Shown piece after piece: positions 19,904 through 26,570 of a DNA stretch of 64,000 nucleotides. Location: the NCBI GenBank assembly GCA_025057995.1, contig JANXEW010000001.1, forward strand, positions 186,001 through 250,000, in the 5' to 3' direction. Position numbers and translations under genes: made by a program. The stretch is from Thermofilaceae archaeon. GTDB taxonomy: Archaea > Thermoproteota > Thermoprotei > Thermofilales > Thermofilaceae. Numbering within the stretch: the first letter of the stretch is position 1; every line of letters starts with the position of its first letter. A model generated the notes under the pieces. It was given only the letters and a program-made list of their open reading frames with translations, made no database searches and was not told where the DNA came from.

Positions 19904-20983
19904 TTGGATCTCGTGCTCTATCTTGAGATGAATCAGCCGATTGAATTGAAGAAAGAACCTCCAACGAGAGTGAGTGAATGGGTAGATCTAGTAGATGAAG
20001 CGGTGATGCGAAAGCGTTTCGAAGAAGCGGCGGGTAGGTGTTACACTCAACTTATGAAGGTGTTGGAGGAACTTATCCCTCACGGTTTTAAAGTTGGGGT
20101 TAAGGTCAGCGGTACTTTTCTTGAACAAGCGGAGCGCTGGGGCAAATGGTTGCTAGAAGAGCTGACGTCACTCGTCTCACGTGGGGCTGTAGAGTTGATA
20201 GCGGGACCATACTTCAACAGTCCCCCACTCTTGATACCTAACGATGAGTTCGTGGATCAAGTTAGGCTGCATGTGAAAAAGGTGGAGGAGGTTTTCGGCT
20301 GTAAGCCTAGAGTATTCGCTGGACCCTACTTAGCTTACTCAGACGAAGTTGGAAGGTTAGTGTCTGACGAACTGGGCTTCAAGGCGGCGTTAACGGAAGG
20401 TGTGGCCCAAGTTTTAGCCTGGAGGTCCCCCCACTTCGTATATAAACATCCGGCAAGGGATTTGTTGCTCCTACCACGGGATCAAACCCTTAGCAACGAG
20501 ATAGCGTTCGGCTTAGGCAAGTGGTTGACGGCAGCTATCTTAGCTGAAAAAGCTTCACACGTCGAAGGTCACGCCGTGTTGTTAGGAGTTCCAGCGGAGA
20601 CCTTTGGCCTAGCAATTCCAGCGACTGCTGGTGTGTTTGAGTTCCTCCGTTGGCTACCCCGAGAATTAGCCAAGTACCCGTGGGCTAGCTTCGCAACTCC
20701 AAGCGAGGCTATTGAAAAACATGAGCCGATCGACGTGTTAAGTATCCCCAATCCGGTATCGTGGCTTGAGTCGGGTGACCTTAGGCTGCTGAGCGAAAAC
20801 CTTCTTCAACAAGTCGTCCTATCTCTTCTAACGGAATTAAGAGGTCTAGCTGCTGAAAAAGGTTATCAAAAAGCTTGGCGTCTTCTAACTCAAAGCGACT
20901 TACTCCTCTCTCTACGTAACGTTTCGACGGCGATCCGTGCTTTAAAGGCAACGTGCGCTCTTCGAGAGGCTCTAGCAGGCTAG
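19904..20983 (+). CDS. GH57-fold protein without catalytic residues (pseudoenzyme)
   Basis: A 359-residue relative of the GH57 protein encoded tail to tail with it (next entry). The two align along most of this chain, for example TEG-x5-L-x-WRSP-x2-VYK and the EFLRWLPREL region. At every catalytic site the residue is changed: region-1 His becomes N10 (EMNQP), region-2 His becomes N105 (YFNS), the nucleophile Glu becomes Y142 (FAGPYLAY) and the acid/base Asp becomes P230 (GVPAETFG). It should keep the fold and possibly bind glucan without cleaving it. The start is a TTG at 19904. GH57 amylase-like homologues lacking catalytic residues are a known group. Confidence 0.8.
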   Translation: MDLVLYLEMNQPIELKKEPPTRVSEWVDLVDEAVMRKRFEEAAGRCYTQLMKVLEELIPHGFKVGVKVSGTFLEQAERWGKWLLEELTSLVSRGAVELIAGPYFNSPPLLIPNDEFVDQVRLHVKKVEEVFGCKPRVFAGPYLAYSDEVGRLVSDELGFKAALTEGVAQVLAWRSPHFVYKHPARDLLLLPRDQTLSNEIAFGLGKWLTAAILAEKASHVEGHAVLLGVPAETFGLAIPATAGVFEFLRWLPRELAKYPWASFATPSEAIEKHEPIDVLSIPNPVSWLESGDLRLLSENLLQQVVLSLLTELRGLAAEKGYQKAWRLLTQSDLLLSLRNVSTAIRALKATCALREALAG

Positions 20984-22554
20984 TAAACGCTTGAAAGTTT
21001 TCCCCTCCTTGAAGACAACTCTTCTAGAAGGGTTAGGAAACGTTTCCTTAGCTCTTCACCGCTTACAGCTTTCAACTCTTCGATCCTGCGGGCAGCTTCC
21101 TCATCGTAGAGAACATTTCTAAACCATTCGGCAATATGTCCATTCTTTACGTGAAACTCTAAGCTCTTGATCGGAATCTTCTTTATAGTATCAGCTAAGT
21201 CGAGGACACTAGCTGCAGAGTACGGCGTTGGGACTCCTACATCTTCATAGAACTGGAAGGCTAAGGTGTCCGGTAGAGGCCTGAACCAAGATGGGGGAAC
21301 CCCTCTTCTCAAAGCTTTCTCGAAAATTCTCGACTCGAGATCCATCACGGCCTCATGGAAAGCTGCGAAAGCGTGGTACGGTGTTGGGTAGGGGCTGAAA
21401 TAGCTGTGAACCTCACCCGGGCCTCCGGCTTTCGTGCTCATGTAGTAATAGTGGTCGCTGATGGAGAGCAGCCTCCACAACCTAATCAAAGTCTCGTCCC
21501 CTAGACCCTTGACTAGAAACTCCAGTCTCGACTCCCTTTTCAAAGCCAGGTTTTGCATAGGGTTACCGACCCAAGCCGAAAGATCTCTCTCAACGTCGGC
21601 CCAGGAGACTGGTTCTGGAGCGTCGATTTCTCCCACTGGCTCATGGGAGTCGACCGTTTCGCTCGGCTTCGCGAAACTGAGGCCCCAAAGCTCTGCTTCG
21701 CGGGGAAGCCACTCAAAGAACTTGAAGATTCCAGTCTCTTGAGGATAGTGTTCACCTATTGTTTCATAATCTATGAATATACATATCACCTGCCCTGGTG
21801 TAGCAGCGAGCCAAGCCGCGTACTTCTCGGCTGTCAACGGGTATTGATCCCAGTCGCGAGAAGCGAAACGGAACCCGATGTCGTCGCTTAGTCTATAATT
21901 ACGTAAGAGTACTTTAACGTTAGACCCTTTAGCCTTGTAGACGTAGTTAGGCGAACGCCAGCCTAGCAATCGTTCAGCACCTTCAGTGACTACGGCTTTA
22001 AATCCTAGCTCTTCAGCTACAGCAGCTACACCGTTATCGTATATCAACTCTGTGTTCTCAAAAACCCTTGGTTCTACACCTAAAAGGTCACGTACCGTTC
22101 TCCTGTGCTCCTCTACCTGCTCTACAAACTCTTCACGGGAGATGAGGTAAGCTAGGGAATGGTAGTACGTCTGACCCAAGACTTCACACCGACTATGCCG
22201 TGCCACTTGACTAAAAAGGTCTAGAAGCTCAGGTGCCCAACGGGACGCCTGCTCTAACAAAACTCCGGAAAAACTGTAGGCCACTCTAAAATGCTCGTGC
22301 TCATCTAAAAGCTGGAGGAAGAGCGAGGTCGCAGGCTTATAGCAGCGCTCCGAAACCCTTTCAAACACTTTTCTAGTTAAGTCGAGGTCAAAGTATACGT
22401 TCTCCAAGTCTTCAGGCTTGAGACCCCCGCCCGATTCCAAACAAGCAAATCTTTTCTCATGAATCCTTTGGTACAGCCTATACGGCTGATGAACTTCAAA
22501 AATGAGAATTATCTCAGGGGCAGCGCTAGGAAACCCTTCCGCTTCAGCAGCCAT
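20980..22554 (-). CDS. GH57 alpha-amylase-type hydrolase (catalytic)
   Basis: Region 1 is FEVHQPYRL; region 2 is GQTYYHS; the nucleophile is the second Glu of VFENTELIY (E169 from this start) and the acid/base is the Asp of FIDYETIGEHYP (D262). This matches the MJ1611-type GH57 alpha-amylases. The frame is open back to a GTG at 22614, which would add 20 residues; the ATG at 22554 is preferred because the family starts a few residues before HQP and a CTTATACG box lies about 25 bases upstream. An ATATTTTA box before 22614 keeps the longer form possible. It overlaps the pseudoenzyme by 4 bases, tail to tail. Confidence 0.83.
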   Translation of the reverse strand: MAAEAEGFPSAAPEIILIFEVHQPYRLYQRIHEKRFACLESGGGLKPEDLENVYFDLDLTRKVFERVSERCYKPATSLFLQLLDEHEHFRVAYSFSGVLLEQASRWAPELLDLFSQVARHSRCEVLGQTYYHSLAYLISREEFVEQVEEHRRTVRDLLGVEPRVFENTELIYDNGVAAVAEELGFKAVVTEGAERLLGWRSPNYVYKAKGSNVKVLLRNYRLSDDIGFRFASRDWDQYPLTAEKYAAWLAATPGQVICIFIDYETIGEHYPQETGIFKFFEWLPREAELWGLSFAKPSETVDSHEPVGEIDAPEPVSWADVERDLSAWVGNPMQNLALKRESRLEFLVKGLGDETLIRLWRLLSISDHYYYMSTKAGGPGEVHSYFSPYPTPYHAFAAFHEAVMDLESRIFEKALRRGVPPSWFRPLPDTLAFQFYEDVGVPTPYSAASVLDLADTIKKIPIKSLEFHVKNGHIAEWFRNVLYDEEAARRIEELKAVSGEELRKRFLTLLEELSSRRGKLSSVY

Positions 22555-22704
22555 ATGGACAAGTAAAGAAAACAAACGTATAAGCGTTCCGTCCAACAGT
22601 TCCAGTAAAAGCACTACATACAGCCCATCCTTAAAATATCATTTTTTAATATTCTGATACATTTTTAAATAAAGTTTATAGGATCAAGCTTATCTATAAA
22701 AGGG

Positions 22705-24813
22705 ATGGCGACTGAAGTTAGGAGGGAGGTCGTCGAGTACTTGCCTGGTTTGACTGTTCGTTCGTTGTTGATCGGTGTGCCCTTACTGTTGCTGTACGCT
22801 TACCTTAGCGTCGTAGTAGGCTTGTACACTGACAAGGCCGGCACGTTCGGCACCTTCATCATACCCATGATCTACCTCATCATAATCCTAGAACTCTTGG
22901 GGAGAACAAACCCCAAGATGAGGCTAACGCCACAAGAACTAGTATTCATCTTCTCACTATTCACGTTCATGGGGATGCACAGCCACTTATTCATGCACGC
23001 GGCGGCTCACGGCAACCCTCCTCAGTATATTTGGAGTTGTATTCCTTGGGGTGATTATCTTGCTTTTACTATTGATGCTTTGAGGGATTATTGGAGTCGT
23101 GCTGTTCCTGCTGTTAGTGTTCCTCCTGAGCCTTTGCGTTTTGATGTTGCTAGGATGGTTGTTCAAGGCCGTAGTCCTGGTGAAGCTATTCCTTGGGGTA
23201 GTGTGCTTCAGCCTTTGTTGTATTGGGGTTTAGTCTACGTCTTCTACAGTTTTATTAGCGCTTGGGTTGCTTTCGCCTTCGGTAAGCCTTGGGCTGAAGA
23301 GGAGAGGCTTGTCTTCCCGTTAGCTGTACCTAGCCTCTACTTGTTTAGAGAAGCTAGTGAAGTCTCTACAGGCGGTAAATCCCGTTTATTCGACTTCACT
23401 ATACCTCACACTAAGGTATTCTGGGCTATGTTCGTAGTAGGCATCATCAGCGGAATCAACCCTATACTAGCTGAACTACTACCAGCATTCCCGATAGCAG
23501 CATGGTGGGGAGAAACAAACGTAACACTACCATTCCTAGCATCACTACTACCCGGAGTTTACGCGGCAGCCATATTCTTCATACCGCAAGTAGCCGTAGG
23601 TTTAGTTATGCCGAATGACGCGTTGGTTACGTTAATTCTCTCGTGGGTTGTATTCGGCGTGATCTACCAGTACGTTGGAGTGGCTACGGGGCAAGTTCAG
23701 TACCAACCGGGGATGGAATACGTTTGGCCTTGGGAGGCTTACCCAGGAGTCTGGATGCCGTTCCCCTACCGTTTCATAGCGGCTAACGGTATAGGAGTGT
23801 CCATCTTCCTTTGGTTGCTTTTCAGATACAGGAAGAGGGTCGTCGACGTTTTCTCGACACTGTGGAAGAGGGATATTGTTGAGCAAGGCTTGTCGATGAG
23901 GCTTGTAACAATACTAATGCTCATAGGCTTCTTCGGCTGGTACGCCCTCATGCTAGCAGAACAAGCAAGTCCAGTTGTGGCGCTCCTCGTCCCGATCTGG
24001 GCGCTATTATTCAACATAACGTTTGCTAGAGTGTTTGCTGAAGTCTTCTGGCACGTGGGAACAGGGTGGGGTCACGCATGGATACCAACCTACGAATTTG
24101 GTAGGTTGGTTCACGGGTGGCCTGACTCCGCCGGAGTTACGTGGGATAACCCAATGACCAACCCATCCTGGTTCACTGTAGCTAGACACATGGCCAATAT
24201 TCACAACTGGAATATAAGCTTCAGCCCGTTGACAGCCGGACACCAGGTTACACTGTATAAATTAGCTCACGACCTGAAGATGAAGATGACAGATCTGCTT
24301 ATAGCAATTATCCTCGGCTCTATAGTGTTCTCGTTCGTAGCGATGCCCCTTGAGGCATTCTTCATCCTCCACACAAAGGGAGGACTTAACGCTACAAACG
24401 CTTCTGGAGCAAACTGGTGGCCGTGGATGGCCGCAGGCTGGTACCACAGAGGTTACTGGATGGGCGCAGGGATGACCCCTGACGTTGTAGGCTGGCTCTT
24501 CTACGGTGTCGGTATCGCCTTGGGCATAATATTCTACTTACTGAAAGCAAGGTTTACATGGTTCTGGTTTATAAGCGTGCCAGCCTTGTACGTAGGCATG
24601 ACGATAGTAACTTACATGTGGTTGACTTCTCTACTTGCTTTAATCATCAAGTTTGTTGCTATCAGGACTGTAGGTATTAAACGCTACGAGGAGTATGCAA
24701 TGCCCGCGTGCGCAGGATGGATCCTCGGCTTCGGCGCCGCCTGGCTACCAGCAGCTCTCGTCAACATGTTCACTGTCGTGCTACCGAGAGTAGGAGCTCT
24801 CTGGCTACCTTAA
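22705..24813 (+). CDS. Large polytopic membrane protein, DUF6785/DUF6784-like
   Basis: A 702-residue protein with about 14 membrane helices and aromatic, Trp-rich loops (WPWEAYPGVWMPFPY, HVGTGWGHAWIP, WWPWMAAGWYHRGYW). It resembles the DUF6785/DUF6784 proteins, distant relatives of oligopeptide-transporter-like carriers common in heterotrophic archaea and Planctomycetes; no function is proven. A TTTATAGG box lies 27 bases before the ATG, suggesting a leaderless message. Codon use changes abruptly inside the gene: C-ending up to 23016, T-ending from 23017 to 23232, A-ending around 23464-23550. It may import sugars or peptides for the nearby hydrolases, which is inference. Confidence 0.72.
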   Translation: MATEVRREVVEYLPGLTVRSLLIGVPLLLLYAYLSVVVGLYTDKAGTFGTFIIPMIYLIIILELLGRTNPKMRLTPQELVFIFSLFTFMGMHSHLFMHAAAHGNPPQYIWSCIPWGDYLAFTIDALRDYWSRAVPAVSVPPEPLRFDVARMVVQGRSPGEAIPWGSVLQPLLYWGLVYVFYSFISAWVAFAFGKPWAEEERLVFPLAVPSLYLFREASEVSTGGKSRLFDFTIPHTKVFWAMFVVGIISGINPILAELLPAFPIAAWWGETNVTLPFLASLLPGVYAAAIFFIPQVAVGLVMPNDALVTLILSWVVFGVIYQYVGVATGQVQYQPGMEYVWPWEAYPGVWMPFPYRFIAANGIGVSIFLWLLFRYRKRVVDVFSTLWKRDIVEQGLSMRLVTILMLIGFFGWYALMLAEQASPVVALLVPIWALLFNITFARVFAEVFWHVGTGWGHAWIPTYEFGRLVHGWPDSAGVTWDNPMTNPSWFTVARHMANIHNWNISFSPLTAGHQVTLYKLAHDLKMKMTDLLIAIILGSIVFSFVAMPLEAFFILHTKGGLNATNASGANWWPWMAAGWYHRGYWMGAGMTPDVVGWLFYGVGIALGIIFYLLKARFTWFWFISVPALYVGMTIVTYMWLTSLLALIIKFVAIRTVGIKRYEEYAMPACAGWILGFGAAWLPAALVNMFTVVLPRVGALWLP

Positions 24814-24837: not shown

Positions 24838-25530
24838 TTATGTTATTATTTCGTTGTTGATTTCCCTCTTTTTAATATATTTTGATATAGATGTAACAAC
24901 TTTAGAATATTTTTTCAGCCTCCTATATCCACTAAGGCTGGGCAGCAAACCGGCTGCCCTAAGCTTACCTAGCATCTTCTCAATCTCTTCCTTGCTAAGT
25001 CTTAGTTGCTCTGATGCTTTCTCAAGACTTTCACTTTCCGCTATAGCTTCAAGGATCCTTAACTCATGATCGCTTTTAACGGAGCAAAACCCTGAGAGAA
25101 GCTCTAACAGTGCATCTTCGACAGCCGTTTTAACTATTAGGTATAGTTCGTCTTCATCAATAACGAATAGGTCACGTAGCTCTATAACCTCGACGCCGAG
25201 GGTATCTGCCAAGCTCCTACTGGATTCTGGAACGTGCCTAGCTACAATCATAGGTTTTGCACCGAGGATCAGTGCGTTCACATAAGCTTGTTTCACTTCT
25301 GATGGGCTTGCGCTGCCAGCCTTTACCTCGACAGCGTATTGTTCCCCCTCTTTTCCTTTTGCTATAATGTCGACTTCGCCCACCTGCAAGTTGTTTATGG
25401 TAAGCTTTACCTCTTCTTCGACTACCGTGTATCCTCTTTCCTCTAAGGCTTTCTTAGCTACTTCAACGCTGGCTCGCCCCCTCACGTTTATCGACCATCT
25501 AATCTTTAGAGCATCAATTAAAGTTTCCAA
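24838..25530 (-). CDS. PD-(D/E)XK nuclease-like protein with C-terminal helix-turn-helix
   Basis: A 230-residue protein. Residues 10-115 fit a PD-(D/E)XK nuclease core: GEVDIIAKG provides the metal-binding Asp (about residue 54) and YAVEVKAGSAS the E-x-K pair (about 69-71), with a following helix (SEVKQAYVNALILGAK). Residues 145-220 are helical with an HTH-like segment (SESLEKASEQLRLSKEEIEKML). Similar archaeal proteins are described as RecB-family or Holliday-junction-like endonucleases of unknown role. The start overlaps the deacetylase gene by 13 bases, so the two form an operon. Confidence 0.72.
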   Translation of the reverse strand: METLIDALKIRWSINVRGRASVEVAKKALEERGYTVVEEEVKLTINNLQVGEVDIIAKGKEGEQYAVEVKAGSASPSEVKQAYVNALILGAKPMIVARHVPESSRSLADTLGVEVIELRDLFVIDEDELYLIVKTAVEDALLELLSGFCSVKSDHELRILEAIAESESLEKASEQLRLSKEEIEKMLGKLRAAGLLPSLSGYRRLKKYSKVVTSISKYIKKREINNEIIT

Positions 25531-26570
25531 TACTTTTTTAACAGTGCTTTCAGCTCGTATACGTAATTTTTAGCCATGTTGAAAACAGGCTCAGGAGACT
25601 TTGTGAGAGGGTATTCCATCTCTAAACCGCATAGCGCTGAGGCGAAAGCTGGTAGTCCGTTCTCGAGGCCCAGCGAGTAACCTCCTTCCAGAAAAACAGC
25701 AGTTTTACCCTCTGTTAACCGTCTAGCTATTGAACCTATCCTTGCGAAGGTCCACTCAGTTGCTTGAAGATGAGTGAGTCCATCAGCCTTGTAAGCATCG
25801 AAACCTGCCGAAAACAACAGTGCTTCAGGCTTAAACTCTTCAACTAGGGGGACTACGACCTCCTCTAGAGCTAGAGCGTAGACGTCGTCGCCCCCACCGG
25901 GCGGCAACACCATGTTGACCTTCGTCCCTTCCCCTTCCCCATCCCCTAGCTCTGTGGGGAATCCTGTTCCCGGGTAAAGGCTAACAGGATCCTCGTGTAT
26001 GTCTACGTGAAGTAGCTTAGGGTCTGAGTAGAAGATCTCCTGTGTTCCATTGCCATGGTGAGCGTCGAAATCTATCACAGCTACTCTCTTCAAGCCTAGC
26101 TCGAACAATCGAGCTGCAGCTACAGCCACGTTGTTGAATATGCAGAAGCCCTGTGTGAGCGCCCCCATGGCTGCCCCCCTCTTGCCTGCGTGATGGCCTG
26201 GAGGTCGAGAGAGAGCTAGTAGAGTACAATCCCCCTTCAGCGCTTCAGCGGCGTCGAGGGCGGCCCCAGCTGCTGTTAAAGCGGACCGCAAGGTCCCGGG
26301 AGAAAGGTAGGTGTCGCTGTCTAGCATAGCCATTCCTGTCTCCACGTAACGTTCGATTTTATCTACGTAGGTCGGATCGTGCGCTCGATACAGATCCTGT
26401 TTTTGAGCAGGTTTTGGCTCCGTAAACTTAAACTCTAGTCCAGACTTCTTCAACGCCTTAACGGCGATTTCGAGTCTTTCAGGTCTCTCAGGGTGAGGGA
26501 AGGGGGGCTTATGTTCTAGGAAGACCGGGCTGTAGACTACCTTTAACACATCGTGTCCTACCAATGACAT
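25518..26570 (-). CDS. Histone deacetylase family protein (AcuC/HDAC-like)
   Basis: A 350-residue zinc amidohydrolase of the HDAC superfamily. Seen are SRPPGHHAGKRGAAMG with the catalytic His pair, VAVIDFDAHHGNGTQEIFY with the zinc-binding D-x-H, the second zinc Asp in SAGFDAYKADG, and the C-terminal EGGYSL glycine-tyrosine motif. It removes acetyl or acyl groups from lysines or polyamines. In archaea candidates include acetylated Alba or acetylpolyamines; no acetyltransferase is adjacent, so the substrate is open. It is the first gene of a pair with the nuclease-like gene. Confidence 0.9.
   Translation of the reverse strand: MSLVGHDVLKVVYSPVFLEHKPPFPHPERPERLEIAVKALKKSGLEFKFTEPKPAQKQDLYRAHDPTYVDKIERYVETGMAMLDSDTYLSPGTLRSALTAAGAALDAAEALKGDCTLLALSRPPGHHAGKRGAAMGALTQGFCIFNNVAVAAARLFELGLKRVAVIDFDAHHGNGTQEIFYSDPKLLHVDIHEDPVSLYPGTGFPTELGDGEGEGTKVNMVLPPGGGDDVYALALEEVVVPLVEEFKPEALLFSAGFDAYKADGLTHLQATEWTFARIGSIARRLTEGKTAVFLEGGYSLGLENGLPAFASALCGLEMEYPLTKSPEPVFNMAKNYVYELKALLKKYWKL

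Follow-up and report, generated by a model that had tools for sequence, protein, structure and literature searches.

The abrupt codon patches in a membrane-protein gene of this Thermofilaceae archaeon are probably gene-conversion tracts shared with a second copy of the gene and shaped by a strand-polar ratchet of the mismatch endonuclease EndoMS/NucS. Gene conversion between paralogues in this and other archaeal genomes has a strand-polar base bias. The bias is visible at synonymous sites.

The window, the whole stretch of 64,000 nucleotides that was analysed (C11:186001-250000), comes from a genome (G000) of 1.81 Mb in 83 contigs. Each base occupies 25% of the genome's third positions, the synonymous-usage baseline for the patch scores. 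The first-pass annotation, made from the letters alone, had described three patches in the gene, and a recount returned its figures exactly: pyrimidine-ending codons end in C in 30 cases and T in one at 22831-23016, and in T in 52 cases and C in one at 23017-23232, while 22 of the 29 codons at 23464-23550 end in A. The protein does run on through all of them, the changes being synonymous within a single open frame. Scored against the genome's own synonymous usage, the T patch reaches 40.3, the highest value among 1,435 genes, whereas the best T score from five within-gene synonymous shuffles of each of the 1435 genes was 17.0. The A patch (21.1) is high, yet within the range of the most A-biased shuffled genes (22.2), and the C patch, scored as a C-run, gives merely 9.6. 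No T/G-versus-A/C junction among 1295 genes is stronger than the switch at 23016/23017 (z 5.38).

Table 1. Codon patches, stretches shared with the second copy and conversion tracts in the patch gene (positions in the window)
Feature	Position	Strand	Basis and relation to tracts
DUF6785 membrane-protein gene, 702 aa, bearer of the patches	22705..24813	+	one uninterrupted frame; Pfam DUF6785
5' stretch, gene nt 3-129, 98% DNA identity to the end of contig C19	22707..22833	+	second copy, different upstream DNA
A/C-type patch, T avoided, 30/31 pyrimidine-ending codons end in C	22831..23016	+	counted; apparently the 3' part of the first conversion tract
T/G patch, T or G at 62/65 synonymous third positions	23017..23229	+	counted; 5' part of the second conversion tract, presumed left tract border
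A/C patch, T or G at 6/54 synonymous third positions	23431..23598	+	counted; 3' part of the second tract
77 bp, gene nt 777-853, identical to the end of contig C55	23481..23557	+	C55 diverges beyond, the right border of the second tract
Third conversion tract, gene nt 1136-1263, near-identical to C55	23840..23967	+	diverged flanks; T/G first half, A/C second half

The first-pass annotation had considered that close homologues might carry the same patches. Aligned with the gene, they do not: the patches are absent from homologues at 81% and 79% identity and from four more distant ones, and are therefore specific to this lineage. The border at 23016/23017 adjoins a place where the protein family varies in length (HGN|PPQYIWSC versus NNPLSMPVY in L007-L009), which could be a homology break between two copies. 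In that reading the gene is made of successive T/G-to-A/C units, the first running up to 23016, the next from 23017 to about 23557-23598, and the last from 23840 to 23967. The homologue at 79% identity (L006 and L013, G001:C108) is split at residue 577 into two frames, through either a frameshift or a misassembly. Upstream of the patch gene (19904-22614) are two family 57 glycoside hydrolase genes in convergent orientation, and downstream lies a histone-deacetylase-like gene (25518-26570). The adjoining gene on the minus strand (24838-25530) encodes a protein of 230 aa with matches to UPF0102 (restriction-endonuclease-like, E 7e-6), to NucS_C below the cut-off (E 4e-4) and, weakly, to a helix-turn-helix.

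Parts of a second copy of the gene end two other contigs, C19 with its 5' stretch and C55 with its 3' part. Three differences separate the copies in the 5' stretch, each a C in the window copy and a T in C19. The 77 bp shared with C55 is as long as the overlap seen repeatedly where contigs of this assembly end. Within one alignment, the window gene and C55 show an identical stretch with abrupt borders and diverged flanks; as read from the DNA, this mosaic of identical and diverged segments is the mark of gene conversion between the two copies. The patches sit in or beside the stretches common to both. The middle of the second copy (22834-23480) is absent from the assembly, as would be expected if it were identical to the window copy and had been assembled once, and the T patch itself is presumably common to the second copy. 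Recombination between diverged copies, one of the causes suggested in the first-pass annotation, thus holds in substance, the patches being part of tracts in which paralogues have undergone gene conversion. Blocks brought in from other genomes, raised there as a point to check, do not explain them: the composition arises inside the tract through a strand-polar bias that recurs across many tracts and many genomes. A mosaic of donor genomes was rejected because T plus G alone is a property of a strand, not of genome composition, and because the tracts are polar.

A codon-aware search of 1105 paralogue pairs for DNA-identical tracts in otherwise diverged pairs found further examples in the same genome, among CoA-ligase-like proteins, family 3 glycosidases, Cdc48/VAT ATPases, RadA with two RadA-like proteins, ABC ATPases and a further pair; four of these families received Pfam assignments. 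Of the contig-to-contig matches that resemble tracts (C11/C17, C8/C15/C16/C20 and C3/C12), two were left out as strain duplicates or contig overlaps. Over several genes C17 matches the final part of C11 (C11:515000-519467) at about 85-92% identity, probably reflecting a second strain or a duplicated region. The tracts have a common anatomy, with synonymous sites rich in T and G at the 5' end and in A and C at the 3' end, and sharp borders at the end of homology. The pattern is its own reverse complement, so that either strand is T/G-rich at its start and A/C-rich at its end. Over 12 tracts of the genome the difference between halves has a z of 8.66, a value reached by none of 20000 random segment sets. 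Ordinary genes showed no genome-wide excess of T/G-to-A/C switches (1295 genes), and the signal therefore belongs to the tracts. The claim that nothing like the patches occurs elsewhere is true of the window but not of the genome, whose next-highest T patches fall in such tracts, in the CoA ligase (23.5 and 22.7) and RadA (18.8 and 17.4).

The gene for RadA is itself a conversion partner (C33:22978-24451 and C33:62016-63107; L049 and L051), a Walker A segment of 60-70 codons being identical in DNA between it and two tandem RadA-like genes. A 167-bp tract lies in two short minus-strand genes, CopG-like by eye (C66:85359-85525 and C82:45901-46067), and likewise passes from T/G-rich (51/83) to A/C-rich (49/84).

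Across 19 archaeal genomes, several of them closed, 50 of 55 tracts had this polarity, four had the opposite and one was tied. When only the longest tract of each pair was counted, 24 of 25 were polar. Apart from those in the patch gene's own genome, most tracts belong to a single gene pair, VAT, in related species that have inherited part of their state, so the tracts are not fully independent. Polarity also occurs in other families of the class, including the single-contig genomes G025, G030 and G045, and weakly in G034. At fourfold sites T drops along the tracts from 0.62 to 0.08 and A climbs from 0.07 to 0.57; G and C remain at 0.09-0.27 throughout. The T/C and G/A choices change in the same direction. 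The first base of leucine codons follows the polarity as well, and the bias therefore acts on DNA rather than on codons. Flanks are flat, the bias jumping within five codons of the homology border. Paralogues of E. coli, a MutS/MutL organism, provided four tracts only, with a mean difference of -0.04.

The Cdc48/VAT pair provides the key control. In Thermofilaceae, single-contig genomes included, the two VAT genes are near-identical in DNA over the same D2 segment, the proteins as a whole being about 70% identical. The codons of the segment differ by species and the polarity is constant. Across 11 genomes the codon identity of the paralogues rises from 0.31 to 0.89-1.00, then drops to 0.14, and the T/G fraction inside the tract runs 0.87, 0.83, 0.70, 0.50, 0.52, 0.15 and 0.27, against about 0.5 outside. 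Where the paralogues have been converted (nine genomes), the T/G fraction of the segment runs from 0.79 to 0.21; where they have not (ten genomes), the same segment gives 0.47 and 0.52. The pattern therefore tracks conversion and not the protein, the mRNA or the region. In four draft genomes (G005, G006, G009 and G012; L197-L200, L211-L214) contigs stop inside VAT where the D2 segment has been converted, as though assembly had failed across the identical tract. The G006 pair (L199 and L213) is T/G-rich in both halves, 0.9-1.0 on the left and 0.56-0.9 on the right, partly because its contigs end within the tract.

The tracts divide the bases into keto (T, G) and amino (A, C), and the T/G versus A/C split of 50 of the 55 agrees with the specificity of EndoMS/NucS as given in the available part of PMC7736090. 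According to that account, EndoMS/NucS is the mismatch endonuclease of many archaea that lack MutS/MutL, and the Sulfolobus islandicus enzyme cuts G/T, G/G and T/T, spares A/C, A/A and C/C, and cuts C/T and A/G weakly, with manganese. In Mycobacterium smegmatis, NucS is reported to suppress the recombination of diverged sequences (PMC5290159). Haloferax volcanii needs NucS for gene conversion, which is severely impaired when the protein is lost; in the same study Rad50 proved dispensable, and its authors made a case against a break-induced pathway (PMC11276520). A NucS_C domain is encoded in the patch gene's own genome (C82:54430-54747), and 40 of 44 genomes of the class have one above the cut-off. 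Three genomes (G046, G162 and G027) have no NucS_C match at 1e-10, while sisters in the same genus have one, which suggests, on gene content, recent losses of the mismatch endonuclease. The sisters with a match are G045 and G047 for G046, and G060 and G153 for G162.

We infer a repair pathway in which NucS is the agent. In established models of recombination, where a break is mended through strand invasion, copying and annealing, the left-hand heteroduplex consists of the top strand of the recipient and the bottom strand of the donor, and the right-hand one of the top strand of the donor and the bottom strand of the recipient. A broken copy of the gene would be repaired from its paralogue in this way. 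Left of the break a keto-keto mismatch would then form exactly where a T or G was about to become A or C, and to the right in the opposite case. Keto-keto mismatches would be cut and the event would fail, while the reverse changes, passing through amino-amino mismatches, would survive. The surviving changes would thus be A/C to T/G left of the break and the reverse to its right. A site near the left end of a shared stretch would lie mostly left of the break and therefore move to T or G. With breaks spread over the stretch, the left end should fill with T and G and the right end with A and C, leaving the middle mixed; the bias should end where homology ends, and should act wherever the protein is indifferent. 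All four predicted features are seen: the T/G left end, the A/C right end, the mixed middle and the stop at the homology border.

Simulation with an EndoMS-like cutting table produced the gradient, and simulation with no enzyme or with a symmetric table did not. The simulated excess of T over G was weaker than that observed. For T to exceed G on the left, as it does, the enzyme would have to cut T/C mismatches more readily than A/G, a difference not established by PMC7736090, the available part of which describes both as weak and seen only with manganese. We are inclined to extend the idea beyond this gene: a mismatch nuclease that prefers keto-keto pairs may act as a directional ratchet, and recurrent tracts in NucS-bearing archaea, and perhaps actinobacteria, would then be readably polar from T/G to A/C, marking their borders and the strand polarity of repair.

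Other sources of polar tracts have to be weighed against the NucS ratchet. Error-prone repair synthesis, with a polymerase misinserting A and C in the new strand and so leaving T/G to the left of the break and A/C to the right, would be polar and would fit the dominance of T and A; its borders would also be sharp if the copied stretch alone counts. It is nonetheless unlikely, as the polymerase would have to be very inaccurate to override the existing variation, yet the proteins encoded by the tracts are conserved, and no such polymerase has been identified here. The recombinase itself might prefer T/G-rich strands, which would form better RadA filaments and invade more, and such tracts would spread selfishly. 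RecA forms its most stable filaments on TGG repeats (PMC3763553), and the polarity of the tracts would place T/G on both 3' ends, as this preference wants. The TGG preference is, however, that of bacterial RecA and would have to extend to Thermofilum RadA; it should moreover raise G, whereas at fourfold sites T alone rises. We therefore think this route distinctly unlikely. In a hot cell, damage to the single-stranded 3' ends that breaks expose would change the top strand on the left and the bottom strand on the right, by deamination of C to T, change of A to G via hypoxanthine, or reading of lost purines as T. It too predicts polarity, and clusters of mutations in break-derived single strands are described in PMC6765108 and PMC6786661, as far as the available parts go. 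Resected ends should run past the homology border, but the flanks are at baseline within five codons, and this explanation seems highly improbable.

We find two further readings scarcely credible. Selection on codons, mRNA structure or translation speed would suit a continuous protein with synonymous changes, and the first-pass annotation had proposed programmed translation speed or an RNA constraint. Neither survives the comparison of the same VAT protein segment, flat in codon choice where unconverted, nor the lack of patches in the homologues of the window gene at 79-81% identity, and a pattern that is its own reverse complement also speaks against selection on codons. An assembly or strain chimera might be suspected in a draft genome where C19 and C55 end inside the repeat, but a chimera is unable to make one-letter codon endings, and closed genomes have the same anatomy.

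If the NucS ratchet is the true explanation, gene conversion can be biased in a strand-polar way, in contrast to its GC-biased form. A single genome would then be enough to read off where tracts lie, where they end and with which strand polarity they were repaired, and the tracts would form a natural record of EndoMS/NucS specificity. It would also call for caution, since extreme codon patches would be possible without translational selection. Our searches of an open-access library found no earlier description of polar tracts, which is not proof of novelty.

The closest known process is GC-biased gene conversion, described for bacteria in PMC4450053. There too, on the part of the paper available, recombination of copies that differ gives some bases the advantage where mismatches arise in the heteroduplex, and synonymous sites change with no selection on the protein involved. 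In our tracts, by contrast, T and A rise while G and C stay nearly level, with no rise of G+C over A+T, and which base is favoured differs between the two sides of a tract; the bias is therefore strand-polar. Break-associated mutation clusters in single-stranded DNA (PMC6765108, PMC6786661), as far as those texts were available, are likewise linked to recombination and strand-specific; unlike them, the bias here stops at the homology border and the protein is kept, so that it looks like a choice among variants and not a burst of damage. The mtrA genes of methanogens show long-lasting conversion between archaeal paralogues, in which recurrent events keep segments identical as they do here, and the available part of that paper does not mention a polar base composition (PMC4632066). 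EndoMS/NucS repair and its barrier to recombination (PMC5290159, PMC8228993, PMC7736090) are alike in that the specificity fits the keto/amino split, the enzyme acts on recombination heteroduplexes and the gene is present here; the parts of these papers at hand do not mention a directional effect on the composition of tracts.
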